Below, piece by piece: positions 1,597-53,745 of a DNA stretch of 64,000 nucleotides (within the stretch, counting starts at the first letter, position 1; each line of letters begins with the position of its first letter). Both the position numbers and the translations under genes were made by a program. The stretch is from Mycolicibacterium helvum. Its GTDB lineage: Bacteria; Actinomycetota; Actinomycetes; Mycobacteriales; Mycobacteriaceae. The stretch lies in NCBI RefSeq assembly GCF_010731895.1, contig NZ_AP022596.1, positions 3,596,001 through 3,660,000 of the forward strand. Direction: 5' to 3'. The notes under the pieces were generated by a model. It saw only the letters and a list, made by a program, of their open reading frames with translations, was not told the DNA's origin and did no database searches.

Positions 1597-3657
1597 TCAC
1601 GGCATGTAGAAACCGCGGATGTGGTGGTAGCGGCCGTATCCGAGCAGGGCGTTGGCGGCCTGTAGCCCAGAGACCACAGCGGCTTCGATGCAACCGGCAT
1701 TGATGCCGCAGTCGGTCCAGTCGCCGGCGAGCACGAGGTTGTCGTAGCCACTCTCATCGGGGCGCAGCCGGTACTTGTCCGACCCCGGGACTGAGAGCAC
1801 GTAGCGGTCGGACGGGTCGATGTTGACGCTGACGTGCTGGGTTTCCAGTGCGGCCGCACCCTTTCGGTCACCCGCACCGGATAGCAGGCCCCAGCTGAAC
1901 CCGCCTTCGGTCACCGCTTTCGGCAGATACATCCCGACATGGCGGTTCAGGTAGTCAACGGCGTTGGCCAGCACGCGCTTTCGGTGGGTGGTGACGTACG
2001 CGGCGGGGTCGTCGGTGGTTGGCCAGTGGGCATCGAGCGCCCCGCAGAAGTACGCCACGGTCTGTGGTTCCTCCGACGGCGGCCACTGCTCGGCCCACAA
2101 CGTCTGGCCCATCGACGCCCAAGTGTCAAACGGTGACACGTAGCCACTGGTGGTCACTCCGGGGCGGTGCCAGCCCAGCGCGGCTTCGGTCGGCCGCAGC
2201 CAGAGTTGGAATGACTGGGTGGCCACCGTGCGGACGTTGGTAGTCATCTCGTGCCACTCCGGGCGGTCGGCGATGAGTTCTCCTGCCACCAGTTCGACCA
2301 TGCCCAACGATGTCGCCAGCACCACGTGGTCGAAGTCGGCGCCGCGGCGCAGAATGCGGGTCTCGACGTCCACCCGCTCGCCGAAGTGCGACTCCAGATC
2401 CGCTAAATCTGTTGTGGCCTTGAGTTTTTCGTAGCTGGGGAGGGCAGGGAACACGGGCAGTCCGTCGGCTAAGATCAGCGGCTCGTAGGTGTCGAGCCCG
2501 TCGGCGAGTTCGACCTGCCGACCCAGGGTGATCGCGTCGATACGGTGCCGGTGAGCGTCGAGGTGCAGCGCGTCGAGGCGGTGGAAGAACTCGAATCGGA
2601 CTCCGCGCCGGCGCAGCGCCTGATAGATCGGTGCGATGATAACGTCGCCCATGCCCGCGGTCATCTTCCAGAAGAACGCGCCCTTGTACTGGAAGAGCGC
2701 GATTCCGGTGAGTAAGACAGCCACCCCGGCGGCGAAGGTCGGGCGGGTGAAATCGCCCTCTTCGTAGCCGAACACCATGTCGTACATGCCACGAATCAGC
2801 GGGAAGTCGAGGACATCGGGGTCCGCTCCATGACGCAGTAGCCAGGCGCTGTATTCCTCGTCGTTGATGGCACGGAAGCCGGCGGGGTCGGTGATCAGCT
2901 GATCGGCGATCAAGCCGCGCGTAGTGGCCGCCAGCAGTGACATCAACAGCCACATGCGCTTGTGCTCGGGCCGGCGCTCGTAGTCGAGTGCTTCCCGCAC
3001 CGCGTCGAGCGCCTCGGTCAGGAACCCCGCGGCCGAACCCTCGGCGGTGCGGGGTTCGATCAGGGCGGCCAGCGTGGCCAGCGCCGCCCGCCGAACCGCG
3101 GCGATCCAATCGGCCGACTCCGGCTCCGGGCTGACCGACAGGGTGAGATCCTTACCGCTTGCCGCGCTGAGTGATTCGGCGAAGTCCATCAACAATCGCA
3201 GGGCGCGAGCGGCGAAATCGAGCACGGTCAGTTCGCGTCCCGTTGCACCCGGTTCGCCGGGCAGCTCGGGGGTGCGGCTGAACTTGCCGGACCAGATCAG
3301 CCAGTCGTCACCGAAGCGGTCGGCCATCCCGAGTTCTTCAGCGGGGATCAGCGCCTGATCCCAGGTTCGGACCGGGCAGCCTGGATCGGTGTTCTCCCGG
3401 TCCAGCTCGGCGTAGCACTCGCGCAGCAGCGCGAAAGCGTTCTCGTAGGAGCCCAGCCAGATGTGGAGACCGTGTTCCTCGATCCGGTTGTGCTCGCCGC
3501 GGCTGGAGGCACCCTTGCCGCCGAGGCGCCAGCCTCGCTGGTACACAGTGATCGACTCGAAGCGATCTTGCCATTGGCCGTCACTGAGCCGCCACGCAGC
3601 ACTGAGCCCGGCCATGCCCCCGCCCAGAATGGCGATCCGGCCGCGTCGGCGTATCAC
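1597..3657 (-). CDS. FAD-dependent phytoene/zeta-carotene desaturase-like oxidoreductase
   Basis: This 686-aa flavoprotein has an N-terminal dinucleotide-binding motif (ILGGGMAGLSAAWRL, about residues 10-24). A second motif at about 61-75 (EHGLHIWLGSYENAF) closely resembles the HGLHxxFGxYxN signature of plant-type phytoene/zeta-carotene desaturases and HpnE-like hydroxysqualene dehydroxylases. The C-terminus has the expected FAD-closing segment (NLVLAGDWTDCGINAGCIEAA). It starts with GTG, overlapping the stop of the upstream cyclase/ATPase gene (GTGA), so translation is probably coupled. A polyprenyl diphosphate synthase sits in the divergent arm, which supports an isoprenoid substrate, but no phytoene or squalene synthase is present here. 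Family: confident. Substrate: unknown. Confidence 0.8.
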   Translation of the reverse strand: MIRRRGRIAILGGGMAGLSAAWRLSDGQWQDRFESITVYQRGWRLGGKGASSRGEHNRIEEHGLHIWLGSYENAFALLRECYAELDRENTDPGCPVRTWDQALIPAEELGMADRFGDDWLIWSGKFSRTPELPGEPGATGRELTVLDFAARALRLLMDFAESLSAASGKDLTLSVSPEPESADWIAAVRRAALATLAALIEPRTAEGSAAGFLTEALDAVREALDYERRPEHKRMWLLMSLLAATTRGLIADQLITDPAGFRAINDEEYSAWLLRHGADPDVLDFPLIRGMYDMVFGYEEGDFTRPTFAAGVAVLLTGIALFQYKGAFFWKMTAGMGDVIIAPIYQALRRRGVRFEFFHRLDALHLDAHRHRIDAITLGRQVELADGLDTYEPLILADGLPVFPALPSYEKLKATTDLADLESHFGERVDVETRILRRGADFDHVVLATSLGMVELVAGELIADRPEWHEMTTNVRTVATQSFQLWLRPTEAALGWHRPGVTTSGYVSPFDTWASMGQTLWAEQWPPSEEPQTVAYFCGALDAHWPTTDDPAAYVTTHRKRVLANAVDYLNRHVGMYLPKAVTEGGFSWGLLSGAGDRKGAAALETQHVSVNIDPSDRYVLSVPGSDKYRLRPDESGYDNLVLAGDWTDCGINAGCIEAAVVSGLQAANALLGYGRYHHIRGFYMP

Positions 3658-6600
3658 TCCAGTAACGCGCGGGCGCGCGCCAGTTCGGGCCAGTCCTGGT
3701 CGGCGCCGATTCGGCTCAGCGCCTCCTGCAGGGCAGGGTGCGCCGATTCGCCGATGAGTTCACAAGCATCGGCGGCGCAGCGCAATTCGAATACCGCAGC
3801 ACCCTGATCGCGAGCCACCTCGATGGCCTTCTGCAGGCCGGCGCACCGCGCATCGGGATCGTCGAAAGTGTGGGCCAGGACCCGGAGTAGTTCGGCATCG
3901 TAGAAATGTGCGCCGGTGGCTCGGGTCGTCTCGAGGGCAAGCTCTGCGTGTTGGCGGGCCAGTTGCCGATCACCGATAGCGGTGAGCAACCGAGCAAGAA
4001 CACTTTCATAGGATATGACGAACGTATTCAGCTCTGCTGCACGCCAGCTCTCGACGATCAGGGTCAGGCTGTCGATATGGGGTTGCAACACAGCGGGATC
4101 GGTTTCTCCCGCGGCCAGTGCGATTCGAGCGGCGAGTGTAGCTCGGTTCGACATCGATACCATCGTCCACTCACCCAAGCCGTATTTCTGCGCGTGGTCG
4201 CCTATTTCGTCGATGATAGCGGCGGCAAGATCCAGTTGGCCCGCTTCGATGCGTGTCGAGGCCTCTCGTGCCCGCGTGTAGCAGGTTGTGGTCGCGTTGT
4301 GCGGGAATCGCAATGTGCTGCACCTGCCCGCTATCCGGGCGAAGGTCGGTTCAGCTGCGTCGAGATCACCCTGAAGGAACTGGATGAAGCCCAATTCGGC
4401 GTACATGCCGGCGATGGGGTCGTTTGGGGCGTACCACATTTCCGCCATCTCGGGCGCGCCCGTTCGATCGAGCAGCTCTGCGGCGGCCTCCAGTGCAGAA
4501 CGGGAAGCAGTGAACTGCCCGCGGAACATGGCAAGTGCCCCTGCCACTGCGTTATAGGCCGCCGTGGACCAGTCGGACTTCCCTTCCAGCGCGCGGAGAG
4601 CCTCGACGAGCTCCGTTGCTTTATCCAGGCGGCCGCGGGCGGTGAAGTAGTTCAACAGTGCGCTCAGCGCGCCGGAGAGCTCAAGGCCTGGTTCGTTGCC
4701 GATCAGTTCCAGACATTGTTCGAATTCGACGACGGCTTCGGCGCTGGTCTGTCCGCTGGCCGCTGAGGCGAGGAAGCCCCGCTCCAACCGAATGGTCACC
4801 TCGTGCCGATCGCGGTCGCGACCGGCCGGAATGTTGGCAATACTCTCCAGCGCCTTGGTGAGGTGGTTACGGGCTTCGTTGAGCGCACCCCGTTGGCGGG
4901 CTTCTGAGGACGCCCGCTGATAGGCGGTAGCGGCTTCGTCGAATCGCTCCGCCCGCTCGAAATGGTGCGCCACCAGCGGCCATTCGGGTGTTCCGCCCGT
5001 TGTGGGGTCGGCCAGGACGTCGGCGATGCGGTGATGTGACCGGCGCCGGACGCTGGGGGGTGACAGTTCGGCGGCCACCTCGCGGAGCAGCTCGTGCTGG
5101 AAGGCCCATTGACGCTTGCCCACGGGCCGAAGCACCCGGGCTCGGTTGAGATCGTCCAGGAGTGCATCGATCTTGCGCCAGCCGACCCCGGTCACCGACG
5201 ACAGCAGGTCACGGTCGAAGCGGCTGCCGATGAGTGCGGCGGCTTCGACGACCAGCAGTGAGTCGGTAGTCGAACGCAACCGTGCAACCAATGTCTCGTA
5301 CAGGGTGTCGGGCACCTGGGCCTGATCGTCGAGATCCTCGGATCGGAGCTTGAGTTTGGCCACCACTTCTTCGATGAACAGCGGCACGCCATCGCAACGC
5401 TCCTGCACCGCTCGCCTGGCATCGAGTCCCATGTCGGGATGGAGCGCCCGAATCAGTGCCTCGGACTCCTGGGCCGCAAGCGGTTTCAGGTCCAGCTCTT
5501 CGACGAACCCCCGCAGTGGGGGCACGCTTCGCCCGGTAACCACGACCAGTAGCCGGTTGTCTGCCACCCGCAGGAGGGAATTGATGATGCTGATGGTGTC
5601 TTCGTCGTACCAGTGGATGTCCTCGGCCACGATCAGGGCCGGACCGGCCCGGACACACGCCAGTAGGTAGTCCTTGACGGCTGCGGTGATCTGGTCGAAC
5701 CGTGCGCCGGCGTTGACGGTCGCGGGCTGATATCCCGCGTCTGGGGTGATGCCGAGTACCGGCGCCAGCAGCGGCACCGTCGTCGCGGGGTCCAGCGACC
5801 GGTTCTGGACCTCGGCTTCTAACCGGCGCAAGCGGTCGGGCGGATCCGAGTCGCGTTGTATCTGGCAGTGCCGCTCGATCAGGCGTCGGACCGGGCGTAA
5901 CCCGATGTCGGTGTGGAACGGGGACCCGAACAGCTCGAGGACGGTGGCATCCGATTCGCGTGCCATGTCGATGACGGCGCTGGCCAGTCGGCTCTTGCCG
6001 ATGCCGCCCTCGCCGCGCAGGAGTACACCGCGGGTGGTCAACGTACCGGCGCTGGCTTGATCCCACATCTCCCGCAGCGCAGCAAGTTCACGCTCCCGCC
6101 CGACTATCGGGCCGTAGGTCTTACCGTCGAGATCCCGCTCGGCGGTCACCCGATAGTGGGCGAGCGGACTGTCCATACCTTTGACCCGTTGCGGCGGGCA
6201 TTCGGCCATCTCGAAGTTGGCGCGCACCAGCTCTTCGATGGCGGTCGACACCGAGACGGTGCCCGGTTGGGCCAGGCTGCAGATCCGGGCGGCCAGGTTG
6301 GCGCCGAGGCCGTAGACGTCGTCTTGGTCGATGTCCAGGAACACCACACCGCGGTGAATGCCGACGCGGACGTCGATGTCGAACCCGAAGCGGCGCTCGG
6401 CGCGGGCACTGAGATCAGCGACTTCGCGGACGATGTCGAGCCCGGCCAGCACGGACCGATGGGTGTCGTCCTCGTGTGCCTTCGGATGCCCGAACACCGC
6501 GAGGAGCCCGTCGCCCTTGATCGAACCGATGTGACCCTCGTAGTGCGCGACGATATTGCCGACCACGTCGCGGTAGCGTCCGACGACGGTGCGATACACC

Positions 6601-6836
6601 TCGGGCTCGATGCGCATGGACAGTGCGGTGGAGTCGACGAGATCTGCGAATAGCACAGTGAGCCGCCGTATTTCACCGCTGCCCACCGGTGTGGCGAGCA
6701 GCTCCTCGGCGTCCGGGTTGGTGCGGTCGACAGCCAGCACCTGACCAGCGAGCTCGTCGGCGGTGGCACGGTCGCCCTCGTTGATCGCCCGGACTGCGCG
6801 TTCGAGAAGATCGTCGATGGCCGGACTGGCAGTCAC
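3654..6836 (-). CDS. Class III adenylate/guanylate cyclase fused to STAND-type ATPase and TPR region
   Basis: This 1060-aa multidomain signalling protein starts with GTG. About 50 residues precede a class III nucleotide cyclase domain at about 58-235. Both metal-binding Asp segments are present (FADLVDST at 63-70; KGDG at 107-110), as is the transition-state Asn/Arg segment (GANLAARI, 178-185), so the cyclase looks catalytically competent. An ATPase domain follows, with Walker A GEGGIGKS at 275-282 and Walker B LIVAED around 401-406. From about residue 600 the protein is helical, with TPR-like repeats. This architecture is common in actinobacterial LuxR/cyclase regulators, but no HTH is visible. 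It is the third gene of the leftward arm and overlaps the desaturase-like gene, suggesting it senses or controls that pathway. Confidence 0.85.
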   Translation of the reverse strand: MTASPAIDDLLERAVRAINEGDRATADELAGQVLAVDRTNPDAEELLATPVGSGEIRRLTVLFADLVDSTALSMRIEPEVYRTVVGRYRDVVGNIVAHYEGHIGSIKGDGLLAVFGHPKAHEDDTHRSVLAGLDIVREVADLSARAERRFGFDIDVRVGIHRGVVFLDIDQDDVYGLGANLAARICSLAQPGTVSVSTAIEELVRANFEMAECPPQRVKGMDSPLAHYRVTAERDLDGKTYGPIVGRERELAALREMWDQASAGTLTTRGVLLRGEGGIGKSRLASAVIDMARESDATVLELFGSPFHTDIGLRPVRRLIERHCQIQRDSDPPDRLRRLEAEVQNRSLDPATTVPLLAPVLGITPDAGYQPATVNAGARFDQITAAVKDYLLACVRAGPALIVAEDIHWYDEDTISIINSLLRVADNRLLVVVTGRSVPPLRGFVEELDLKPLAAQESEALIRALHPDMGLDARRAVQERCDGVPLFIEEVVAKLKLRSEDLDDQAQVPDTLYETLVARLRSTTDSLLVVEAAALIGSRFDRDLLSSVTGVGWRKIDALLDDLNRARVLRPVGKRQWAFQHELLREVAAELSPPSVRRRSHHRIADVLADPTTGGTPEWPLVAHHFERAERFDEAATAYQRASSEARQRGALNEARNHLTKALESIANIPAGRDRDRHEVTIRLERGFLASAASGQTSAEAVVEFEQCLELIGNEPGLELSGALSALLNYFTARGRLDKATELVEALRALEGKSDWSTAAYNAVAGALAMFRGQFTASRSALEAAAELLDRTGAPEMAEMWYAPNDPIAGMYAELGFIQFLQGDLDAAEPTFARIAGRCSTLRFPHNATTTCYTRAREASTRIEAGQLDLAAAIIDEIGDHAQKYGLGEWTMVSMSNRATLAARIALAAGETDPAVLQPHIDSLTLIVESWRAAELNTFVISYESVLARLLTAIGDRQLARQHAELALETTRATGAHFYDAELLRVLAHTFDDPDARCAGLQKAIEVARDQGAAVFELRCAADACELIGESAHPALQEALSRIGADQDWPELARARALLE

Positions 6837-6842
6837 GCGAGC

Positions 6843-7358
6843 CTACAAACCGACGGTGACCGTCACCGTTTCGGATTCGCGGCCGGCGCCGTCTGCCCGG
6901 CGAAGGCGCAGGGTGCCGGTGTAATTGGCACCGGTGAACTGGTCGTCGGTCAGGATCAGCTGAACCGACGTCGCGTTGGCGACGAGTACCGGCGGATCGA
7001 AGCTTATTGCCTGCAGGGGAATTCGGATATCCGGGTGGCCGACTCGCTGGAAGGGCTTTGTGATCGACACTGACCGTTGATAGGCGCGTTGCGGAACGTC
7101 GACGGGGTCGGGTGGTATCGGCTTCGTCGAGGTGGGTTGCAGGCACCACGACGGGCCGGCGAGTGCCACCTGGACGGCGCCGGCATATGTCCGCATATTC
7201 AGATCGAGCAGGTTGTGAATCAGGCGGACCCACCCGTCGATTCCCCACTTGCCCGCGTCGTCGCGCCTGGCCGCGTCTTGAGCGATGTCATTGATTTGGT
7301 CGAAGTACCCCCGGACGACGCCGGCCGGACGCTGGAGGTCATGTCGCGGTGCACTCAT
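6843..7358 (-). CDS. Hypothetical protein with C-terminal beta-sandwich-like segment
   Basis: The product has 171 aa from the ATG at 7358. I chose this start because it overlaps the upstream stop (ATGA) and has a purine-rich AGGGGGAAG about 4 nt before it; a start 60 bases further upstream is open but lies inside the previous gene. The N-terminal ~90 residues look helical and contain Trp residues (KWGIDGWVRLIHNLLDL). The last ~60 residues look like an Ig-like beta-sandwich, with alternating hydrophobics and a GANYTGTLRLRR turn. That turn resembles GLYRGTFLVED near the C-terminus of the protein encoded at 8851-9534. No known family is recognised. The gap to the cyclase/ATPase gene is 6 bases, so it is almost certainly in the same operon. 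Confidence 0.75.
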   Translation of the reverse strand: MSAPRHDLQRPAGVVRGYFDQINDIAQDAARRDDAGKWGIDGWVRLIHNLLDLNMRTYAGAVQVALAGPSWCLQPTSTKPIPPDPVDVPQRAYQRSVSITKPFQRVGHPDIRIPLQAISFDPPVLVANATSVQLILTDDQFTGANYTGTLRLRRADGAGRESETVTVTVGL

Positions 7359-8770
7359 GTGCTTCCCCCTGGCTTTCCCGGGGTCCGTGGAGTTGTCATG
7401 GCTTGGAGGTATTTCCACGGTGTACTGACGAGCTCGCTACTGACACGTGTGGTGTAGTCGGCCAGGTCGGTCATGGTGAGGCTGCCGGACAGCCACTTCT
7501 GCGTGACGTCGAAGTAGTCATTGGTCAGATCCTGCGCGCACTCGGTCCACGCATCGACCGCTGCTGGCACGAAATGGGTCATCGCCGTCGCCGCCGGTGC
7601 CACTGTGGTGTCGGGATCCTTGCCAGCCTCGTCTTCATTCCTCGGGTAGTAGAACGGCTTGCGGCCGGGGCGCTTCTTGGCCGCTGCGCCGATCAAGAAG
7701 TCGACCGATGCCGTTCCGTATCCGCCGATGCATACGAGTTTTCCCTGTGCGAACGGGGAAAGTCCGCGAATATGCACGACCTTTCTGGTCGTAACATGAA
7801 CGCCGCGCTTCTTGGGGTCGCCCGACGTCGACTTCATGTTGATGAACCCCCGGTCGACCAGTACCTTCCCGTCCCCGGTGGAGAAGTCTGACTTGTCGAG
7901 GTCGTAATCAACTGATGCTTCGAGCTTGCCGGCCCGATAAGGGTAGAACTTCAGCGGTGTGGTGATTTCCTCACCGAGCATTCTGATGGTCTCGAGAACC
8001 CGCCGCCAGCCGTCGGGCAGGAAGTCCGGCTCCTGGCCTTCCATCCGCACGAAGAGCGCCGGGTAGTCATCAGCCCAGTTGAACGGGTTGACGATATCCA
8101 TCAGATCTTGGAGAGAGACCTCATCAGAGTCGAATTCGGTATCGACGACCACCGATTCCAGGCCATCCACCCGTACCACCGCGGTCTTGCATACCGGTGC
8201 CTTGAGCGGTTTGTCGGTCCGGATATCGGCTTCGGCCTTCGCGCGCACGGCCTCGTTGAAATCCCCGGCCCGGGTGAAGCTGCTCGAGACGTGTTGCACA
8301 AAGGACTCGCGTACCGCTTCGCCGGTATCCCGGCGAGCCTTGAGCGCGGTTCCCGTCGGTGCAATCGCGGCAAGGGAATGGTTGAGTGCCGGACCAAGTG
8401 TGCCGTCGGGTTTCTCGAGGTCGGGCAGCGAGCAGCTGGGCGCGACCTTCTTCAGCCGTGCCGAGGTTGATATGCCGTACAACAGCCGAGCCTTCTGGGG
8501 CGCGCTCAGTCGCTGGTTTCGCCCGTCGGCGGCGGCGATCCGTTTCAGGGCCTCGGTGAGATTCGGCTCCTTGCCGGCGTCGCCGGGGAAGTACCGCCTG
8601 ACCAATTCGTCGTACCAGCCGGCGTTGCCGGCCGATCCGGGAAGCAATTTGTCAGCAGCCGCCAACAGTTGAGGATCGTCTTGTGCGTTGACGATGGCCT
8701 GATCGATCGCACCGAACACTTCAAGGATGTCGCGAACTGAATCCGCGCGAGTTGATTCCGCTGATGCCAT
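7355..8770 (-). CDS. Hypothetical protein, first gene of the leftward operon
   Basis: This 471-aa soluble protein shows no signal peptide or membrane segment. I do not recognise a family. Visible features are a Ser/Ala-rich helical N-terminus (about 1-130, with DILEVFGAIDQAIVNAQDD), a central region with an acidic stretch (DTEFDSDEVSLQDLMDIVNPF) and a C-terminal part with a Gly-rich turn (LVCIGGYGTASVDFLIGAAAKK). It overlaps the next gene by ATGA and heads a compact four-gene unit ending in the desaturase-like flavoprotein. Divergent transcription from the 8851 gene across 80 bases suggests shared control. It could be a structural or scaffold component; no catalytic motif supports a more exact role. 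Confidence 0.75.
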   Translation of the reverse strand: MASAESTRADSVRDILEVFGAIDQAIVNAQDDPQLLAAADKLLPGSAGNAGWYDELVRRYFPGDAGKEPNLTEALKRIAAADGRNQRLSAPQKARLLYGISTSARLKKVAPSCSLPDLEKPDGTLGPALNHSLAAIAPTGTALKARRDTGEAVRESFVQHVSSSFTRAGDFNEAVRAKAEADIRTDKPLKAPVCKTAVVRVDGLESVVVDTEFDSDEVSLQDLMDIVNPFNWADDYPALFVRMEGQEPDFLPDGWRRVLETIRMLGEEITTPLKFYPYRAGKLEASVDYDLDKSDFSTGDGKVLVDRGFINMKSTSGDPKKRGVHVTTRKVVHIRGLSPFAQGKLVCIGGYGTASVDFLIGAAAKKRPGRKPFYYPRNEDEAGKDPDTTVAPAATAMTHFVPAAVDAWTECAQDLTNDYFDVTQKWLSGSLTMTDLADYTTRVSSELVSTPWKYLQAMTTPRTPGKPGGST

Positions 8771-8850
8771 TGGCCGCCCCCAACCCTGTTCTCGCAGCTA
8801 GCATAACGTGATTGCGCGTCAATAAGCGAGACAATTCTGACGGGGGCACA
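8771..8850. promoter_or_regulatory. Divergent promoter region of the cyclase/desaturase and polyprenyl-synthase arms
   Basis: This is an 80-base spacer between two divergent starts and is visibly richer in A/T than its surroundings. On the minus strand it contains a TATGCT hexamer (TANNNT -10 type, about 8799-8804) upstream of the 8770 start. No clear -35 or operator was found. Control of both arms from this spacer is an inference. Confidence 0.45.
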
Positions 8851-9534
8851 GTGGACGGTGGCAACAACGGTGATATCCACGATGTGCCGTGGGCGTCGAT
8901 CTTCGATCCGACGGCCAACGTCCGGGCGCTGACTGCCGTTCAGGCAGAAGGCTTTCGGGCTGCCAGCGAACTCGTCGATCGTTTCGTTCGGATGGTCGCG
9001 ACCCGCCCCGACGGCAGCGCGGCAACAGTGCGGCAAGCCTCCCCGCTATCTAACGAGCAACGCGCAGATCTCTTGGGTGCCACCGACGTAGAACCGCTGA
9101 TCAGGTCATGGTGGGCGATGGCGGGGCAGTTCCTGATGGGCGGGGCGCCGCAAACTTCGCCGCCCACTGCAGCGATCTCACCCACGTTGGATTTCACCGG
9201 CTCCGCGGCGTCGGGCAGGTTGGAGTTCGAAACAGAGGCTGGCCTTGCAGCAACTGCTGAGGTGTGGCTCCATAACTCCGCTGATGGTGATATGGGTCGG
9301 ATTCGCCTGCGGTGCAGCGAGTTGATGGCCGCCGACGGATCGGTCATCGAGGCCGCGGCATGTCGGATACATCCCAAGGCCGTTGCAGTGCCCGGACGCT
9401 CCAGTCGCGGTGTCGGCATCACGGTCAAGGTCGCCAAGAAGACCAAGCCCGGCCTGTATCGCGGCACCTTCTTGGTCGAAGACCGCCCGGATTTGTGGCT
9501 GCCGGTGGCATTGACCGTCCGTCCTGCGTCATGA
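8851..9534 (+). CDS. Hypothetical protein with C-terminal beta-sandwich domain, coupled to polyprenyl synthase
   Basis: The product has 227 aa from GTG 8851, which has a GGGGG stretch 4 nt upstream. A TTG 39 bases further upstream is also in frame but has no ribosome-binding site. The N-terminal ~100 residues look helical. The C-terminal ~110 residues alternate hydrophobic strands and end in a segment (KTKPGLYRGTFLVED, then LPVALTVRP) typical of bacterial Ig-like or NEW-type beta-sandwiches. A related ending is seen in the 6843-7358 product on the divergent arm. The stop overlaps the ATG of the polyprenyl synthase (ATGA), so the two are translationally coupled and probably act together. No enzymatic motif was seen and no family is recognised. 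Confidence 0.75.
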   Translation: MDGGNNGDIHDVPWASIFDPTANVRALTAVQAEGFRAASELVDRFVRMVATRPDGSAATVRQASPLSNEQRADLLGATDVEPLIRSWWAMAGQFLMGGAPQTSPPTAAISPTLDFTGSAASGRLEFETEAGLAATAEVWLHNSADGDMGRIRLRCSELMAADGSVIEAAACRIHPKAVAVPGRSSRGVGITVKVAKKTKPGLYRGTFLVEDRPDLWLPVALTVRPAS

Positions 9535-10583
9535 CAAGCGTCGCGGACCGCTCGGACCTGACCGAAGCCGTGGAGACCAAGCTTCGTGAAGTCGGCAGGG
9601 CGGTGCGGCGCGCGATGCTCGATGCGATGCCCGACGGTGAACCGGTGCAGTGGTTGTACGGCCCGATGCGGGAATACCCGTCGCGGGTGGGCAAGGCGCT
9701 ACGCCCGGCGCTGTGCTTATCGGCCGGCCGCGCCTTTGGGGCGGCCCAAGAGGATCTGATCGGCATTGCTGTCGCAATCGAGTTGCTGCACAACGCATTT
9801 CTGGTGCACGACGACATCGCTGACGGAAGCGAGATGCGCCGCGGACGACCCACCCTGACCGCGCGGCACGGGATGGCCGCCGCACTCAACGCCGGCGACG
9901 GCCTGGCTATCGTCGCCAGCCAGGTGTTGCGCCGGGCGACCCGCCGGCTTGACCGGGACATCGCCGATCTGGTGCTCGAGGAGTTCGACATCATGGCGAT
10001 GCGGACCCTGGAGGGCCAAGCCACCGAGCTCGGTTGGCAACTCGACTGCGTGGAGGATCTGCGGCCGGCGGACTATCTCGATCTGATCATGCACAAAACC
10101 TGTTGGTATACAACGATTTATCCGTTACGGGTCGGCGCGATCGTGGGGTCGAACGGTGCGGCGGATCTGTCGCAGATGATCCGGTTCGGCTTCCATTTCG
10201 GTGCGGCCTTCCAGATCCGCGATGATCTGCTGAATCTAGTGGGCGACGAGCGCGACTACGGCAAGGAGATCCTGGGCGACATCTTCGAGGGCAAGCGCAC
10301 GCTGACCCTGGTGCACCTGATGGCCAGCGCCCGCGGTGCTGACCGTGATGTGGTCCGCGACTATCTGCGCCGCAGCCGCGCCGAGCGTTCCGAGGACTTG
10401 GTTCGCACCATCCGCAGGTTGATGGACGACTATGGCAGCATCGATTTCACCAGCGAATACGCCGAGGGCATTCTGCTGGTTGCCGAGGAGTATTTCGAGC
10501 AGGCTTTCTGCGACGCCCACCAGGGGCCCGACTTGGACTTCCTGCGCTCGCTGGTCCCATACGTATGGGAACGTTCGCGGTAG
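9531..10583 (+). CDS. Polyprenyl diphosphate synthase (trans, GGPP-synthase-like)
   Basis: This 350-aa trans-isoprenyl diphosphate synthase condenses isopentenyl diphosphate with an allylic diphosphate. Visible motifs in order are GKALRP near residue 45, the first Asp-rich motif LVHDDIADGS with RRGRPT directly after, a K-T pair (HKTCWYTT), and FQIRDDLLNLVGD as the second Asp-rich motif, where the usual last Asp is Asn. A bulky residue set before the first DDxxD would fix chain length, but I cannot assign C15, C20 or longer. The longer upstream-open frame is ignored because the ATG at 9531 overlaps the preceding stop. It is next to eccB4 but appears functionally tied to the divergent desaturase-like flavoprotein. 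Confidence 0.9.
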   Translation: MTSVADRSDLTEAVETKLREVGRAVRRAMLDAMPDGEPVQWLYGPMREYPSRVGKALRPALCLSAGRAFGAAQEDLIGIAVAIELLHNAFLVHDDIADGSEMRRGRPTLTARHGMAAALNAGDGLAIVASQVLRRATRRLDRDIADLVLEEFDIMAMRTLEGQATELGWQLDCVEDLRPADYLDLIMHKTCWYTTIYPLRVGAIVGSNGAADLSQMIRFGFHFGAAFQIRDDLLNLVGDERDYGKEILGDIFEGKRTLTLVHLMASARGADRDVVRDYLRRSRAERSEDLVRTIRRLMDDYGSIDFTSEYAEGILLVAEEYFEQAFCDAHQGPDLDFLRSLVPYVWERSR

Positions 10584-10654: not shown

Positions 10655-12007
10655 ATGGCCGGCCGCCCTTCGCTTCGAGCTCAGTTGAGTGCGCAGCGTT
10701 TCCTGCTGCGCCGCCTGGAATATGCGGTGCTGGGCCGGCCGATGCCGCAGCGCCACGACCCCCTTCGCACCCAGAAGCTTTCGCTGCTGGCCGGCTGCGC
10801 GGTCGCGGCCGGGATGTTGGTGCTCGACGCGATCCTGGGGTTTTCCCGACCTGACGGAATTGCCAGCGGCGCGGCCCTGGTGATGTCGCGACAGTCGGGC
10901 GCCTTATTCGTCCGCGTCGATGACCAGCTGCGGCCGGTGGCGAACCTGACATCGGCCCGCCTGATCCTGGGGGCGCCGGCGACACCGCAGGTCATCGACG
11001 AAGGCGCCCTGGCGAACGTGGCCGACGGACCGATGTTGGGCATCCCCGGGGCGCCGCGCACGCTGGGGAAGGTGATCGCGTCCCCGGACTTGCGCTGGGC
11101 GGCCTGCAACGATTCCGGTGGACGGACCACGGTGGCAGTCGGAGATGACGCGGCCTCGGTCGCCTTGGACCCGCGTGCGGCCGTCGTCGTCACCGTGGCA
11201 CGCGGCGATGGGTCGGTCTTTCTGCTCTATGACGGCAAGCGCGCGATGATCGACCCTGGTGACCCCGCCACCGCACGTGCGTTGCACTTGGACGACGATG
11301 CTGTCGTCCGAAAGGTCTCTCCGACGGTTCTCAATGCGATTCCCGAGGTCCCGGCGATCGGCCCGCCACACATTGCAGCGATGGGGCAACCATCACCGAT
11401 CACCGGCTTGCGGGTCGGTACCGTCCTGCGGGTCATCAGAACGGACGTGCCCGAGTACTACGTTGTGCTTGCCGGCGGGCTTCAGCGGATCGGTCGGCTG
11501 ACCGTCGATCTGCTCCGGTTCGCCGACCCTGCTGCCGCCAGTGATATTGGCGAAGTGCCACCCGAGCTGGTCGCACGAAGCCCGCTCGTCGACGCCCTGC
11601 CGGTGGCCACCTATCCCGATGAAGCACCCCTGCTACGCAACACCGACGAAAATCTCTGTGCGACATGGCAGTCCGGTCGCAGCGGGATCACCATCGGTCC
11701 GTCATCGGCAGCCGATCGTGAACCAGTCGCCCTGGCCGGATCCGACGGTGACGGGCCCGGCATCGACTTCGTGCGGATGACCCCTGGGCACAGCCTGGAC
11801 GTCACTGATCCGAGCTCGGGCGCGCGCTTTCTCATCACGGACGCGGGAGTGCGCTTCCCCGTGCATGATTCGGCATTGGCCGCACTGGGGTTGGTTGAGA
11901 CGTCGACAGTCGCACCGTGGGTAATCGTGGGTGCGCTGCCCGGCGGTCCCGATCTCACGCGCGATGCTGCGTTAGTCCGCCGGGACGTCCTGGGGCCGCC
12001 GCCGTAG
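10655..12007 (+). CDS. eccB4: ESX-4 secretion component EccB4
   Basis: This 450-aa protein is the membrane-anchored, periplasm-facing EccB subunit of the type VII secretion core. An N-terminal cytosolic segment with the typical LRAQLSAQRFLLRRLEYAVL start is followed by one transmembrane helix at about 45-65 (LSLLAGCAVAAGMLVLDAIL). A large periplasmic domain of repeats follows (VRVDDQLRPVANLTSARLI and similar). Length matches mycobacterial EccB proteins. Assignment to ESX-4 rests on synteny: mycP, eccD, eccC, esxU and esxT follow, then rplM-rpsI, with no EccE, EspG or PE/PPE genes, as in M. tuberculosis Rv3450c-Rv3444c. The 3' end overlaps the convergent mycP4 gene by 36 bases. Confidence 0.93.
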   Translation: MAGRPSLRAQLSAQRFLLRRLEYAVLGRPMPQRHDPLRTQKLSLLAGCAVAAGMLVLDAILGFSRPDGIASGAALVMSRQSGALFVRVDDQLRPVANLTSARLILGAPATPQVIDEGALANVADGPMLGIPGAPRTLGKVIASPDLRWAACNDSGGRTTVAVGDDAASVALDPRAAVVVTVARGDGSVFLLYDGKRAMIDPGDPATARALHLDDDAVVRKVSPTVLNAIPEVPAIGPPHIAAMGQPSPITGLRVGTVLRVIRTDVPEYYVVLAGGLQRIGRLTVDLLRFADPAAASDIGEVPPELVARSPLVDALPVATYPDEAPLLRNTDENLCATWQSGRSGITIGPSSAADREPVALAGSDGDGPGIDFVRMTPGHSLDVTDPSSGARFLITDAGVRFPVHDSALAALGLVETSTVAPWVIVGALPGGPDLTRDAALVRRDVLGPPP

Positions 12008-13294
12008 CCGGACCGAGGCCGCCGCGAGCAGACCGGCCAGACACAGCGCTGCACCGGTCGCCGCCACTGCATAGGGACGGTGCGGTGGCAGCTCGGTTGG
12101 TACGGGCGCGTCCGGCGGACGGGACGCGGGCGGTGATGTTGACGCCACCTGGTCACTCAACGCGGCCAGCGGATCGACGACACCGTTGCCGACCGCGGCG
12201 TTCCATCCGCCGGCAGGGTGGTGGGCGGTGCTCTCGATGCGGGTCATCACCTGCCGCGCCGACAGCCGGGGGAATCGCGCCCTCACCAGGGCCACCACGC
12301 CGCTGACCAGCGGAGCGGCGTAGCTGGTCCCCGATATCGGCGCCTGGCCTGTCGGTGTGGGCATTGTGCCGATCACACCGTCGCCGTCGGGATCGAGGGA
12401 GATGACGTGTTCGCCAGGTGCAGCTGTGTCGACCCACGGACCGTTGAGGCTGAACTGCGATGGCGTGCCATTCGAGTTCACCGAGGCGACGGTCAGGACG
12501 TAGTCCTCATACCACGCCGGGCTGGCGATCACGGTGGGTTGTGCGGCGGTGTTTTGACCGGGGCACTGACCGTCCCCGCCGACATTGCCGGCTGCGGCCA
12601 CCACGACCGCGTCCTTGGTGTCGACCGCGTACGACAGCGCGGCACCGAGTGCCCGGTCATCGAGCATCGACTCGGCGCAGGCCACCGACGAGATGTTGAT
12701 CACCGATGCGCCCATATCGGCAGCGGTGCGGACAGCCATGGCCAGGGTGGCGACGTCGCCGAACCCACGGCTTGATGGGTCGGCGAGTGGTCCGAACTTG
12801 TTGCTGGACTGCCGGATCGCAATCAACACGGCGTCGGGGGCGATACCACTGAATCCCGTCGGATCGGTCCGATCGGGTGCGGCCGCGATGATCCCGGCGA
12901 CGACAGTTCCGTGCCCGTCGCAGTCTTGCCTGCCGTCGCCGCTCGAGACATAGTCGCCGCCGGCGATGACGCGGGACAACCGACGGTGTGCTGCGATCCC
13001 GGTGTCGATCACCGCGACCCGCTGTCCCGCGCCGCGGGTGAGCCGCCAGATCGCGGGCATATCGAAACCCGCTAACTGGGTTGCCGATACGTCGGCACCG
13101 TCAATGGGCAACGGCACTGCGCAGGCCTCGCGCTGTTCGGTCGGCTGGGACGGTGCAGGAGGTGCCGGCGGCGGCAGAAGTGAGTTGTCGATTGCCGGTG
13201 GGATGACTGCGAACGCCGGGGGTGCGCAGTGCGGCAGGGCGAGCAGCACGACCGCGGTCATCGTCGCGCTCAGCCGCGGGCCGCGGCCGGTCAT
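11972..13294 (-). CDS. mycP4: ESX-4 mycosin protease MycP4
   Basis: This 440-aa subtilisin-like serine protease is the mycosin of the ESX-4 complex. A hydrophobic signal sequence opens the protein, followed by a Pro-rich linker. The catalytic triad is visible as VAVIDTGI (Asp), DCDGHGTVVAGII (His) and GTSYAAPLVSGVVAL (Ser). A C-terminal transmembrane helix (PYAVAATGAALCLAGLLAAASV) ends in basic residues. The ATG at 13294 overlaps the eccD4 stop (ATGA). The frame is open far upstream, but that sequence is a shadow of eccD4. Mycosins stabilise the membrane complex and may trim substrates. Confidence 0.93.
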   Translation of the reverse strand: MTGRGPRLSATMTAVVLLALPHCAPPAFAVIPPAIDNSLLPPPAPPAPSQPTEQREACAVPLPIDGADVSATQLAGFDMPAIWRLTRGAGQRVAVIDTGIAAHRRLSRVIAGGDYVSSGDGRQDCDGHGTVVAGIIAAAPDRTDPTGFSGIAPDAVLIAIRQSSNKFGPLADPSSRGFGDVATLAMAVRTAADMGASVINISSVACAESMLDDRALGAALSYAVDTKDAVVVAAAGNVGGDGQCPGQNTAAQPTVIASPAWYEDYVLTVASVNSNGTPSQFSLNGPWVDTAAPGEHVISLDPDGDGVIGTMPTPTGQAPISGTSYAAPLVSGVVALVRARFPRLSARQVMTRIESTAHHPAGGWNAAVGNGVVDPLAALSDQVASTSPPASRPPDAPVPTELPPHRPYAVAATGAALCLAGLLAAASVRLRRRPQDVPAD

Positions 13295-14601
13295 GACGGC
13301 CCGATCCCGGGCAGCGCCGCGAACATCCCAGCCGCAGCCGCCGCGGAGGGGACGACCGCCGCGCTGACCGACACGTCGAGCACGGCGATCGCACGCAGTA
13401 CTGCCGGTGATAATCGGCGCTGCCTGGATTGCCCGAACCACACCACCGCGATCCCAGCGGACAGCAGAGCACCGCAGAGCCAGGGTGCGCACACCGGAGC
13501 CTTGACTGCGCACAGGGCGATCAGCGATGTCGCCGCAACGCCGGACGACATCATCAGCGGGATAACACGATACGGATCGACCTGCCGATAACACCTCAAC
13601 AACAATGCCGACCCGATGACCGCGATGAAGCTCGTTGCGACCGCAGGCCGGTCCGCAGTCGCTGCGGTGACGACAGCGCCAAGGGCCGCCGCTGCAGCCC
13701 CCGTCACGGTGAGCGCGCTCAGCCGATGATGAGCGGTCCTCGTTGTGCGATCGATATCGGTATCGGACAGGCCCGCCGTCGACAACCCGTGGATCGACAG
13801 CCGCGCAGACACCGTCAGCATCGCTAGCGACGCCGTCGCCAGGATCGGGCCGTCGGCTGTGGTTGGCCACCAGCCGGCCACCGCACCCACTGTCGCTGCC
13901 GCGGCCGCCATCGCTACCGCCGCCAGCGGAAGAAAAACCAAAGGCGCACAGTCCAACAGCCGCCAAGCGACCAGCGAGGTGGCGGCGCTTGCCGACATTG
14001 CCAGCAGGAAGCCGGGAGGACCGGGCTGGCCCGGAACGGCCAAGGCGGCGGTCAGGCCGGCGAATGTGGTTGCCAGCACGCCGAGCGTTGTGGCCAGAGT
14101 CGGGTCCCGACGCACCACCACCGCACCGGTCAAGGCCAGTGAGGCCGCCGCAGCGCTGATAGCGGCATGGCGAGCGGCATTCGGGTCCAGCATCGCGCGT
14201 CCGAGCAGGGTCAGAAGCACTGCTGTCGCCCAGCCCAGCACAATCCATCCCGCTCTGCGGTTGGCTGCTGGCCACGGCGGCGGCGTCAAGCCTGCCACCG
14301 CGTCGACGACGGCGGTAGTCAGGTCGAACCTGATCACCGGGGCGCGACGATCCGCCGCCGCGGTCAGGATCAGTAGCTCGCCGTCGGGAATCGAACATTG
14401 GGCGAGCGTCGCCGCCATATCGAGCGCCTCCCCGGACGCCCTGGTCAGGCGCGGTTCGGCGTTGACGAAGTCGTCCTTGCCGATGAGGTCCACGACGGCG
14501 GGTATCAGCTCCGTGATCGGAACATGGGCAGGCAGCGTGAAGTCCGCCTCGTGATCAGCGGTGCGGATCGACACCTGGCACATCTCGTCGGTTGCAGCCA
14601 T
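13291..14601 (-). CDS. eccD4: ESX-4 membrane channel component EccD4
   Basis: This 436-aa protein has an N-terminal ubiquitin-like (YukD) domain of about 90 residues (CQVSIRTADHEADFTLP...ILTAA). About ten to eleven hydrophobic helices follow, for example WIVLGWATAVLLTLLG and GFLLAMSASAATSLVAWRLL. This is the architecture of EccD, the multi-spanning subunit thought to form the rim of the type VII pore. It is followed by mycP4 with a 4-base overlap and is divergent from eccC4. A perfect inverted repeat lies between the two starts. Confidence 0.92.
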   Translation of the reverse strand: MAATDEMCQVSIRTADHEADFTLPAHVPITELIPAVVDLIGKDDFVNAEPRLTRASGEALDMAATLAQCSIPDGELLILTAAADRRAPVIRFDLTTAVVDAVAGLTPPPWPAANRRAGWIVLGWATAVLLTLLGRAMLDPNAARHAAISAAAASLALTGAVVVRRDPTLATTLGVLATTFAGLTAALAVPGQPGPPGFLLAMSASAATSLVAWRLLDCAPLVFLPLAAVAMAAAAATVGAVAGWWPTTADGPILATASLAMLTVSARLSIHGLSTAGLSDTDIDRTTRTAHHRLSALTVTGAAAAALGAVVTAATADRPAVATSFIAVIGSALLLRCYRQVDPYRVIPLMMSSGVAATSLIALCAVKAPVCAPWLCGALLSAGIAVVWFGQSRQRRLSPAVLRAIAVLDVSVSAAVVPSAAAAAGMFAALPGIGPS

Positions 14602-14606
14602 GACAG

Positions 14607-14626
14607 CGGACGCTAGCCAGCGTCCG
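14607..14626. promoter_or_regulatory. Perfect inverted repeat between eccD4 and eccC4
   Basis: CGGACGCT-AGCC-AGCGTCCG is a perfect 8-bp inverted repeat in the ~90-bp divergent spacer. It lies 5 bases upstream of the eccD4 start codon and so within any eccD4 leader. It could be an operator or an RNA hairpin hindering eccD4 translation. The function is inferred from position only. Confidence 0.5.
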
Positions 14627-14681
14627 GAACGGCCGAACTCCGTTGTCCACAGGTGAATTGCCCGGCGGTGCTGGCGGTGTC

Positions 14682-14687
14682 TACCGT
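14682..14687 (+). promoter_or_regulatory. Putative -10 hexamer for leaderless eccC4
   Basis: TACCGT (TANNNT type) ends 6 nt before the ATG at 14694, and no Shine-Dalgarno sequence is present. This supports the 14694 start over the in-frame TTG 51 bases upstream. Confidence 0.45.
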
Positions 14688-14693
14688 CCCTGC

Positions 14694-17600
14694 ATGAATC
14701 GGCCCGCCCGGGTGGCTCCGCAGTTTCCGATCAACGATCTGGTGATCGACACGCTGCCGTGCCCACCCTCGACCGGCGGGGTATCCCGATTTGTGCCCCT
14801 GCTGGGTCTCGGCGCGCTGATGGGCATCGGTGCATTGGTGTGGGGGTCGGGCATGGTCGCGCGCGGCCCGTCCGCGCTGGTCTTTCCGGCCATGATGCTT
14901 GTGTCGGCAGTGGGGATGGCGATGCACGCCGGCGCCCGGCGGGCCGGAGGCAGCCTCGACCGACAGCGAAAGCGGTATCTGGCCGGCCTCGGTCGCCTCA
15001 GCGAGCAGCTGTGCGAGGCCGCGCAATGCCAGCGAGCGTCGCTGCTGTGGACACATCCGGCGCCATCGACGTTGTGGACGCTGATCGGCGGGCCGCGCAT
15101 GTGGGAGCGCGGGCAGGCGGACTCGGACTTCTGCCACGTCCGCATCGGGCTCGGCCGGCAGAAGCTGGCACGCCGCATCGTGGTTCCACCCGTCGGACCA
15201 GTCGACGAGCTGGACCCGGTTACCGCTGATGCCTTGCGGCGCTTCGTCCACTGCCACGCCATCATCGACGATGCACCCATAGCCGTCGCCCTCGGCGAGA
15301 TGCGGGTGCTTCACATCGGCGGCGACGCGCAGAGCGTCCGCGCTCTCGCCCGGGCGATGCTCTGCCAACTGGCTGTGCTGCACAGTCCCGATACCCTCAT
15401 GATCGCGGCGGTGGTCGGACCGGGCCGCCGGCAGTACTGGGATTGGTTGAAATGGTTGCCGCACAACGTGTGTCCGTATCGGGGCGGACCCATGGTGTAC
15501 GAATCCGTGGCCAGTGTCCAGCCCCAGCGGCGCCACGTCGTGCTGATCGTGGACGGTGCCGACCACCGAAGCCTCGTCAGGACCGGAGTGATCGTCGTCG
15601 TCCTCGGGAACGACACCGATGACGCCAACGCACTGCGGCTGCACGTCGACGGTGGCCAGCTCGCCGTGCGCACCGGTGAGCACATCGAGGAGTTCGCCTC
15701 CGCCGACGGTGTGACGATGGTGCAAACGCAGATCTGCGCCCGCCGCCTGGCCCGGCATCGGACCACCGGCACTGGGCCCGACGAACTCCAGCGCTGGGTC
15801 AGCGCACTGGCTGTGAAGGATCTCGCCCCGTTGCGGATTGCACTCGGTACCTCGGCGGACGGTGATCTCGTCCACCTCGACATCAAGGAGGCGGCCGACG
15901 GTGGGCACGGTCCGCACGGGCTGTGCATCGGCGCGACCGGGTCGGGGAAGTCCGAACTGCTGCGCACCATCGTCGTTGGGATGATCGCCCGCCATTCACC
16001 CGACGATCTCAACCTGGTGCTCATCGACTTCAAAGGTGGTGCGACGTTCCTTGGCCTGGAGGGCCTGCCGCATGTAGCCGCCGTCATCACCAATCTCGCG
16101 GACGAGGCGCACTTGGTGTCGCGGGCGAAGGAGGCGCTCGGCGGCGAGATCCAGCGTCGTCAAACGCTGTTGCGGCGTGCGGGCAATGTCGTCAATCTCG
16201 GCTCCTATCAACGCCATCGGCGGGCCGATCCTACACTTCCGGCCCTGTCGACACTGTTCATCGTCGTCGATGAGTTCGCTGAACTGCTCACTCACCAGCC
16301 GGATTTCGCCGAGTTGTTCACCATGATCGGGCGCGTTGGCCGGTCACTCGGCGTGCATCTCCTTCTGGCCAGCCAGCGACTGGATGAGGGACGCCTGCGC
16401 GGCCTGGAGTCCCACCTGTCCTACCGTGTCTGTCTGAAGATCGCGACAGCCGCGGAATCCCGAGCCGTGCTGGGCGTCGCGGACGCCGCCGAGCTCCCCG
16501 CCACCCCAGGGGCCGCCATCCTTCGCACCGGCGACGGCCGCCTGATCCGGTTCCAGGCCACCTATCTTGGCGCCCCGTTGCGTGACCACGCCACAACCAT
16601 GCCCTCGAACCCGGCCGTGCGACTGTTCACCTCGGTGCCCGCCGCGCCACCGGAGATCGGTCACAGCATCAGCCGGACCGCGCTGGACGTAATCATCGAC
16701 CGGTTCCGTGTCCAGGGCAGTCGGGCGCATCAAGTGTGGTTGCCGCCGCTGACGCGGTCCCCGCACCTCTCGGAACTGGACGGTGCCGGCGGGGGAGAGC
16801 TCAGCGCGGTGATCGGTCTGGTTGACCAGCCGTTCGAGCAGCGGCGGGCGCCGCTGGCCGTCGAGCTCGACGGCGCCGGCGGCAACGTCGCGGTTGTGGG
16901 TGCACCGCAGAGCGGGAAGTCCAATGCGGTGCAAACCGTGATCACCGCGCTGGCCGCGCGCCTTGATCCACAGCGGATCCAGTTCTACGGCCTGGACTTC
17001 GGCGGCGGCACACTCGAGGGGCTGCGACGTCTACCTCACGTGGGATCGGTCGCGACCCGTCGGGAGAAGGAATTGGTGCAGCGAATCGTCAGCCATGTCG
17101 GCGCGATCTTGTCTGCTCGTGAAGCCCGCTGTGACGCCGACACATATGGTGATGTCTTTCTGGTGGTGGACGGCTGGTCGACCGTTCGGGAGGAGTTTCC
17201 TGATCTCGAGGCGACGATCACTGGGCTCGCTGCCCGCGGCTTGTCGTTCGGTATCCATGTCATCCTCACCGCGGGACGGTGGGCCGACATCCGGCCGGCG
17301 CTGAAGGATCAGATCGGCACCAGAATCGAACTGCGGCTGGGTGATCCGATCGACTCCGATGTGGACCGCAAACAGGCTTCGGCGGTCCCGATCGGCAGGC
17401 CAGGGCGGGGCATCACTCGCGACGGTCAGCACTTCCTGATTGCGAAACCGGATGATGTCGAAGTGGCTCATGCAGGATCGCGGTGTGCCCCGCCCGTTCG
17501 GTTGCTGCCCGCACTGGTTGAGCATTCCGCTGTCGTCGACGAAGCCGGCGACGACACGCAGCGGGTACTGCTGGGCCTTGGCGAAGACCGGCTCGAACCG

Positions 17601-53665: not shown

Positions 53666-53732
53666 CGATAACTTCGATACCCGTGTCCGGGACCGATTGC
53701 CATGGTCGTCATCGGCGGGCGGATAGCCAAAA

Positions 53733-53738
53733 TATAAG
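53733..53738 (+). promoter_or_regulatory. Putative -10 box for the flavin oxidoreductase
   Basis: TATAAG lies within an A/T-rich AAAATATAAG run and ends 7 nt before ATG 53746, compatible with a leaderless start. No Shine-Dalgarno sequence is present. Confidence 0.4.
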
Positions 53739-53745
53739 TCGGGTG

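Follow-up and report, generated by a model that had tools for sequence, protein, structure and literature searches.

Why would a single bacterial locus combine a polyprenyl diphosphate synthase, a desaturase-like flavoprotein, and a large nucleotide cyclase with three unannotated proteins? This question is raised by positions 1597-10583 of a 64,000-nucleotide stretch of the Mycolicibacterium helvum genome (RefSeq GCF_010731895.1, contig NZ_AP022596.1, positions 3,596,001 to 3,660,000; hereafter the window). We found that the six genes form one conserved system, patchy in distribution, whose parts travel together. Our preferred reading, to which we give somewhat less than an even chance, is that they make up a self-contained module for an isoprenoid: its enzymes make and modify the compound, a START protein binds it, and a STAND-type cyclase reports it; the product, the ligand, and the direction of control are what we infer.

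The initial annotation had placed six open reading frames (ORFs) in two divergent, overlapping arms, and both this arrangement and the protein sizes were confirmed. The minus-strand arm reads, 5′ to 3′, U471, U171, CYC, and FAD, and the plus-strand arm reads U240 and IDS; with starts chosen by conservation, the proteins comprise 471, 171, 1060, 686, 227, and 350 amino acids (aa), respectively. Overlaps of 4 nucleotides (nt) occur at U471/U171, CYC/FAD, and U240/IDS, and 6 nt separate U171 from CYC. The arms lie 80 bp apart (8771-8850) if the 227-aa U240 protein begins at the GTG at 8851; its ORF opens at 8812, giving 240 aa. The gap had been annotated as one shared promoter, and this part can only be presumed because a sigma-70 scan of the gap gave no promoter-like site; a terminator scan of the same 80 bp also found nothing.

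Linkage of the six genes in mycobacteria

In a first survey of 61 genomes searched for U471, the protein was found in 10, all within the genus Mycobacterium in the wide sense (hereafter the genus), and FAD, CYC, U471, U240, and IDS were all present in 20-kb stretches of nine relatives. A flavoprotein alignment scan of GTDB species genomes, with a query blind to neighboring genes, yielded 72 distinct loci (from the best 80 of 84 confirmed stretches), 56 mycobacterial and 16 non-mycobacterial; the named records were mostly Mycolicibacterium, Mycobacterium, and Mycolicibacter. Four mycobacterial loci cut by a contig end (L035, L038, L050, and L074) were dropped. FAD, U471, U240, and IDS each occur in all 52 loci kept and CYC occurs in 51, and U171 was matched by a hidden Markov model (HMM) in 45, with an open frame of 195-261 codons and a similar sandwich-like end standing in its place in the remaining seven.

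Co-occurrence was then scored in an even sample of 148 genomes from across the genus, with E-value limits of 1e-100 for FAD, 1e-5 for U471, 1e-10 for U240, and 1e-120 for IDS. FAD was present in 34 genomes and U471 in the same 34, and U240 and IDS were present in 33 of these; the exception (G094) is 73% complete, and its contig begins inside U471. None of the four was found in the other 114 genomes at these thresholds, absences here and in the Actinomycetota scan reported below resting on a first pass in which scoring was limited to each genome's best candidates. The check proposed in the initial annotation therefore upheld the linkage: the 471- and 227-aa proteins never occurred without the flavoprotein in these 148 genomes, and the synthase goes along. 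Adjacency is not visible in two draft genomes (G065 and G169), where the genes are divided between two contigs. Among 396 Actinomycetota genomes, FAD was detected (E up to 1e-40) in six, three of them in the genus.

The U240/IDS overlap is kept at 4 nt in 49 of the 52 mycobacterial loci having both genes, and the CYC/FAD overlap in 51 of 55. Because of this co-occurrence and these conserved overlaps, the six-gene arrangement goes beyond chance. The initial annotation had also named an outcome that would speak against a unit, namely, arms not kept together elsewhere, and both arms stay together in the other genomes searched. They are divergent in the mycobacterial loci and in L086 and form a single collinear run in L079, L082, L084, L085, L087, and L097; FAD precedes CYC in L019, L048, L056, and L062. 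Among the 21-23 loci with a full copy of the neighboring gene EccB, the distances of FAD, CYC, U171, U471, and U240 intercorrelate at r = 0.91-0.97, compared with 0.69-0.79 for the same five against EccB; over all mycobacterial loci, the five intercorrelate at 0.79-0.90. The median identity of IDS to that of the window is 77%.

Fused and split forms were also recorded. U471 and U171 share one reading frame in L014, their HMMs match a single ORF in L073, U240 and IDS are fused as one protein in L079, and a terminal stretch of the U471 relative in L082 matches the U240 sandwich (12.5 bits). The FAD and U240 HMMs fall on one open frame at L087:9842-12526, with the FAD match ending at 634 of 687 positions, so that the two are either fused or joined by a frame error of the metagenome assembly. 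Likewise, IDS is matched in two different frames at L012:7387-8444 and at L032:3078-4138 (M. litorale F4), where either the gene is broken or the sequence is in error. Beside the system at L048:4765-6246, L073:2185-3789, and L074:4-363 lies a second and divergent copy of U471. In seven loci (L051, L053, L070, L071, L088, L098, and L099), the U471 match comes in two pieces, as if the C-terminal helical part sat in the next ORF, before U171.

Sequence and predicted structure of the six proteins

FAD (1597-3657, minus strand) belongs to the amine-oxidase/HpnE/PDS superfamily, whose members desaturate, isomerize, or reduce long polyene or prenyl hydrophobes. It matches Pfam Amino_oxidase and NAD_binding_8 (PF01593/PF13450), presumably corresponds to COG3349, and is 83-61% identical to the orthologs of nine relatives (mean column identity, 75%). 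The best NCBIfam model is HpnE (TIGR03467; 78.6 bits, cut-off 283.05), followed by the zeta-carotene desaturase model ZDS (TIGR02732; 35.9 bits, cut-off 622.15) and the phytoene desaturase model PDS (TIGR02731; 32.9 bits, cut-off 569.4), and the best-matching stretch is the N-terminal dinucleotide-binding region. The description of FAD as a plant-type phytoene-desaturase-like protein was thus loosely right at the superfamily level, but HpnE is its best model, PDS and ZDS lie far under their cut-offs, and all three identities were rejected on these scores. No sequence relatives of FAD were found in the PDB at 1e-5.

IDS (9531-10583, plus strand), a putative trans-isoprenyl diphosphate synthase, matches polyprenyl_synt (PF00348) at 191.6 bits (cut-off 27) and retains the substrate- and metal-binding residues, with a second Asp motif that reads DDLLN. 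Among 62 relatives, the first aspartate-rich motif (FARM, DDxxD) and the GKxxR, H, RR, and KT residues are invariant, Q228, D231, D232, K245, and D250 are kept in 61 (one gap), and K255 is kept in 61; the fifth position of the second motif is N in 60, D in 1, and a gap in 1. IDS therefore has the catalytic residues expected of a synthase that elongates prenyl chains. Its nearest solved relatives are the geranylgeranyl diphosphate (GGPP) synthases 1wmw and 1wy0, and on that account a C20-like product would be our guess.

CYC (3654-6836, minus strand) contains a class III nucleotide cyclase domain (residues 56-223, 6168-6671; Guanylate_cyc, PF00211, 58.2 bits) and an AAA_16 STAND-type ATPase domain (residues 244-432, 5541-6107; PF13191, 64.5 bits), followed by a TPR-like tail. 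The initial annotation had called it a cyclase/ATPase/TPR protein with all cyclase catalytic residues. Both enzymatic domains score above cut-off, TPR repeats are only subthreshold (18.4 of 30.1 bits), and D65, K107, D109, D173, N180, and R184 are indeed all present. D65, D109, N180, and R184 are kept in 54 of 55 mycobacterial rows (one gap) and K107 and D173 in 53 each. The ATPase carries Walker A (G275-S282) and Walker B (D406), of which G275, G278, G280, and K281 are conserved in 68 of 69 rows (one gap) and D406 in all 69. By these residues, the CYC of the window has an intact class III cyclase domain and an intact AAA_16 ATPase ahead of its long tail.

The other three proteins, U471, U171, and U240, have no Pfam matches above cut-off. 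The AlphaFold2 model of U471 (7355-8770, minus strand; mean predicted local distance difference test [pLDDT] score, 85.9) comprises a helical domain, a START/SRPBCC domain (residues 195-369, 7664-8188), and C-terminal helices. Fold matches of the model, which include the carotenoid-binding proteins STARD3 and BmCBP, identify the helix-grip START/SRPBCC fold in U471; no PDB relatives were found by sequence at E up to 1. Identity to START/SRPBCC carriers, aromatase/cyclases, and abscisic acid receptors is about 10%, and U471 differs from these in its extra N-terminal helical domain and C-terminal helices. The model of U240 (8851-9534, plus strand), made from the 240-aa ORF (mean pLDDT, 80.1; predicted template modeling score, 0.57), shows helices and an Ig/PapD/MSP-like beta sandwich. 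U171 (6843-7358, minus strand; ORF open from 7418), considered from its sequence, seems alike, with a helical-looking N-terminal part and a sandwich-like C-terminal end. At E up to 10, U240 gave only a weak GH123-N match and U171 matched no family, and the lists of fold matches for U471 and U240 do not exclude folds absent from them. The predicted START fold of U471 and the helices plus Ig/PapD-like sandwich of U240 are new here. By a crude hydropathy analysis, none of the six proteins has a clear membrane span.

Relatives outside the mycobacteria

The non-mycobacterial sample comprised 22 loci: the 16 from the flavoprotein scan, two from the scan of 396 Actinomycetota genomes, and four plasmid records (the plasmid collection gave 11 matching records from four genera; one per genus was taken, including one of the eight from Azospirillum). 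By HMM, IDS occurs in 10 of the 22 (L079, L082-L087, L089, L090, and L097) and U471 in 8 (L079, L082, L084-L087, L090, and L097). An ADC-like protein or fused domain occurs in 11 (L089, L091-L096, L108, L110, L111, and L113); the HMM was built from 7 of these, and the other four match independently, with Pfam PF06314 scoring L092 and L108 below its cut-off. U471 and the ADC-like protein never occur together, and L083, L109, and L112 have neither.

A STAND-type protein, recognized by the CYC HMM or by Pfam AAA_16, lies within ~10 kb in 18 of the 22 loci; L083 is cut off upstream of FAD. The 6.4-Mb, single-contig genome of the window has 8 AAA_16 matches above 60 bits and 22 above cut-off, so that the chance of one falling within 22 kb of a random point is ~3% or 8%, respectively, in this genome (others may differ). 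In most of these STAND proteins, the output domain is an N-terminal cyclase, which a SAM domain precedes in Granulosicoccus (L089). The L096 protein has BTAD plus a weak cyclase match, and the proteins of L109, Rufibacter (L112), and Azospirillum share the order kinase-AAA_16-GAF, which continues with GGDEF, a cyclase, and PAS-histidine kinase, respectively. A gene for a cyclic nucleotide (cNMP)-binding Crp/Fnr protein is overlapped by the cyclase gene in Qingshengfaniella. The Azospirillum locus (L111; plasmid p3, 314498-327213) encodes two desaturase-superfamily flavoproteins, an ADC-like protein, and the kinase-STAND-histidine kinase protein (1919 aa), with a FadL-type outer-membrane channel between the genes.

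Comparison with known systems

In joining an isoprenoid enzyme to a cyclic-nucleotide theme, the locus resembles the Family 2B encapsulin operons, whose cargo is a polyprenyl transferase or a terpene cyclase. The best NCBIfam match of IDS is f2_encap_cargo4 (178 bits), with a cut-off of 450 that is far above this score, and the module has no shell gene: the 2B model has seven matches in the M. helvum genome and none in the window, and this identity was rejected. The strongest of the seven, at 43960-44832 of that genome (332 bits, cut-off 400), is missing the middle part of the model and is probably a type 2A encapsulin. The Family 2B shell has a cNMP-fold domain, according to PMC8346489, and this domain does not bind cyclic nucleotides, according to PMC12407261, which makes the parallel weak.

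The TOMM-associated kinase/STAND/cyclase model (TIGR03903) is covered by CYC at positions 324-1263, but the score of 313.4 bits falls short of the required 705.75, CYC has no Pkinase match, and TOMM enzymes were not among the families turned up by the Pfam and NCBIfam scans of the locus proteins. Pycsar shares the class III cyclase domain with CYC, in which, unlike in Pycsar, the cyclase is embedded in a large STAND-type protein; the PycC models of PADLOC matched this domain weakly (best, 4.8e-14), and PADLOC matched none of the other five proteins. The TOMM and Pycsar identities were both rejected. As neither a phytoene nor a squalene synthase gene is present in the window, a carotenoid or hopanoid cluster was also rejected, and the earlier view that this is not an ordinary cluster of either kind was borne out. 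The parts of the locus are known families, and the whole fits none of the known systems tested. We found no description of this gene combination in the literature searched, which left out most subscription papers.

A possible isoprenoid-reporting module

In the module that we picture, U240 would be an adaptor that holds IDS, IDS would make a prenyl diphosphate, and FAD would oxidize, isomerize, or reduce its chain. U471, with U171, would bind or cyclize the product in the START cavity, and the TPR/STAND part of CYC would recognize either the product or the loaded START protein. ATP-dependent assembly of CYC would then pair the cyclase domains and yield a cyclic nucleotide. In class III cyclases, two catalytic domains must pair, and STAND proteins assemble upon ligand binding; activation by assembly would therefore be the simplest mechanism. 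The compound may be a signal or a reporter of lipid state, with the output passing to the cNMP receptors of the cell. Outside the mycobacteria, the substrate would come from the locus's own synthase where one is present and perhaps from uptake elsewhere. A STAND protein that reports a compound made or removed by the flavoenzyme would be expected to show what is seen there, since the flavoenzyme recurs, usually beside an ADC or START protein and a STAND protein, and the substrate source and the output vary. Carried further, this would be a hormone-like system, with its own isoprenoid signal, a START-domain receptor, and a STAND ATPase leading to a cyclic nucleotide, and a branch of a wider undescribed multi-phylum class in which a desaturase-superfamily flavoenzyme and a START- or ADC-like ligand protein are joined to STAND sensors with interchangeable outputs; we regard this extended version as speculative and rather unlikely.

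Several observations weigh against a reporting module. Regulation of the enzymes by the STAND protein would be just as possible, and the START fold of U471 may be catalytic (aromatase/cyclase-like) rather than that of a receptor. L091, L108, and L113 have no STAND protein within the range searched. In relatives without the synthase, the STAND proteins score 84-288 bits with the CYC HMM (none in L109 and L111), about as the paralog of CYC in the window's own genome does (220 bits), so that the pairing there may be independent; moreover, the 22 loci, which include four Rhizobium and several related actinobacteria, are not independent, as judged by eye and with no tree. Some non-mycobacterial cyclases may be altered or inactive because the substrate-choosing positions mostly differ (K107 and D173 each kept in 1 of 14 rows and N180 in 9 of 14, with D65, D109, and R184 kept in 13). 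The distances of IDS track those of the other five proteins less (r = 0.66-0.76), no better than EccB (0.75), and a neighboring saccharopine-dehydrogenase-like gene, TER (342-1592), tracks FAD, CYC, U171, U471, and U240 at 0.91-0.98 (n = 11-18) and EccB at 0.93 (n = 12). For these reasons, the correlations offer little proof of a special unit; although they agree with joint inheritance, they do not set the six genes apart. Finally, one Mycolicibacterium locus (L041) has only 60 bp (9935-9994) between U171 and FAD, with CYC missing and the other five genes retained, which shows that these can persist when CYC is gone from this position (the rest of that genome was not searched for a copy). The direction of control is not settled by this locus.

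The main rival, which we consider possible but on the whole doubtful, is regulated isoprenoid production, in which CYC would respond to some other input and act on the isoprenoid enzymes, either via cNMP or through direct contact, and the isoprenoid, a membrane, envelope, or pigment lipid, is the end product. Regulators are common in pathway operons, and the widely kept 4-nt CYC/FAD overlap would suit such a role. For a dedicated activator, however, it would be odd that the STAND partners keep the ATPase and change the output domain between phyla, and L041 has the enzymes without CYC at that place. The initial annotation had read CYC as a regulator of this kind, which it may be; in our view, a STAND protein that reports a pathway compound to the cell fits the variable-output pairing better. 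A carotenoid- or triterpenoid-type pathway would instead have its head-to-head synthase in trans, FAD as a desaturase or dehydroxylase, the START protein as a carrier or cyclase, and the STAND protein as incidental. The best models of FAD and the STARD3 and BmCBP fold matches point this way, as does SQS_PSY (PF00494), which matches at three places in the M. helvum genome, none in the window; the earlier statement that no phytoene or squalene synthase is present is thus true of the locus and not of the genome. Yet the FAD scores all lie far below the curated cut-offs, and the SQS_PSY gene in the region 3675105-3678440, ~15-18 kb past the end of the window, has another polyprenyl synthase gene ~1.8 kb away, for which reason a second one at the locus is not needed. 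We judge this pathway improbable. The 3675105-3678440 pair is itself probably an ordinary carotenoid cluster.

Two further explanations seem very unlikely. U240 and U171 might coat a lipid droplet or granule and recruit IDS, FAD, and U471 to it, with CYC monitoring its filling. The seeming likeness of U240 and U171, the U240-IDS fusion in L079, and the lack of a clear membrane span would be compatible with this guess from architecture. On the other side, a search with U240, U171, and four related proteins (E up to 10) turned up no phasin or other coat family. Least probable of all, we think, is an anti-phage or conflict role, in which a STAND sensor would be paired with a cyclic-nucleotide output and with enzymes that make a membrane-active effector. 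STAND ATPases and cyclases do occur in defense, and the PADLOC Pycsar-cyclase models match the cyclase domain weakly, but no effector was recognized, PADLOC matched none of the other five proteins, and the constant position next to ESX genes, seen in 27 of the 56 mycobacterial loci, is unlike that of defense islands, which usually shift.

If the reporting module is real, about a quarter of the sampled mycobacterial species (34 of 148) would possess a dedicated isoprenoid-to-second-messenger circuit, using the fold by which plants perceive abscisic acid. Even with control running in reverse, the locus is defined and genetically tractable and offers testable roles for three unannotated protein families and for a large flavoprotein family annotated only as oxidoreductase, as well as a concrete candidate input for a STAND-type cyclase.

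Neighboring genes

TER was rejected as a core part, since it is full-length beside FAD in only 17 of the 72 loci. A TER relative was present in each of 12 genomes checked, of which 10 lack a U471 match and 2 have one, and in G022 it lies ~1.3 Mb from the system. ESX genes were likewise rejected, EccB being in the fetched flank of just the 27 mycobacterial loci noted above. In the window, a type VII secretion locus (10655-19393), which we take to be ESX-4 from its Rv3446c-type protein, begins 71 bp after IDS and also encodes EccB, mycosin, EccD, and EccC. Elsewhere in the window, a second large amine-oxidase-type flavoprotein ORF of 836 aa (53683-56193; Amino_oxidase, 67 bits) lies in a region of lower G+C content (0.59 at 52-56 kb).

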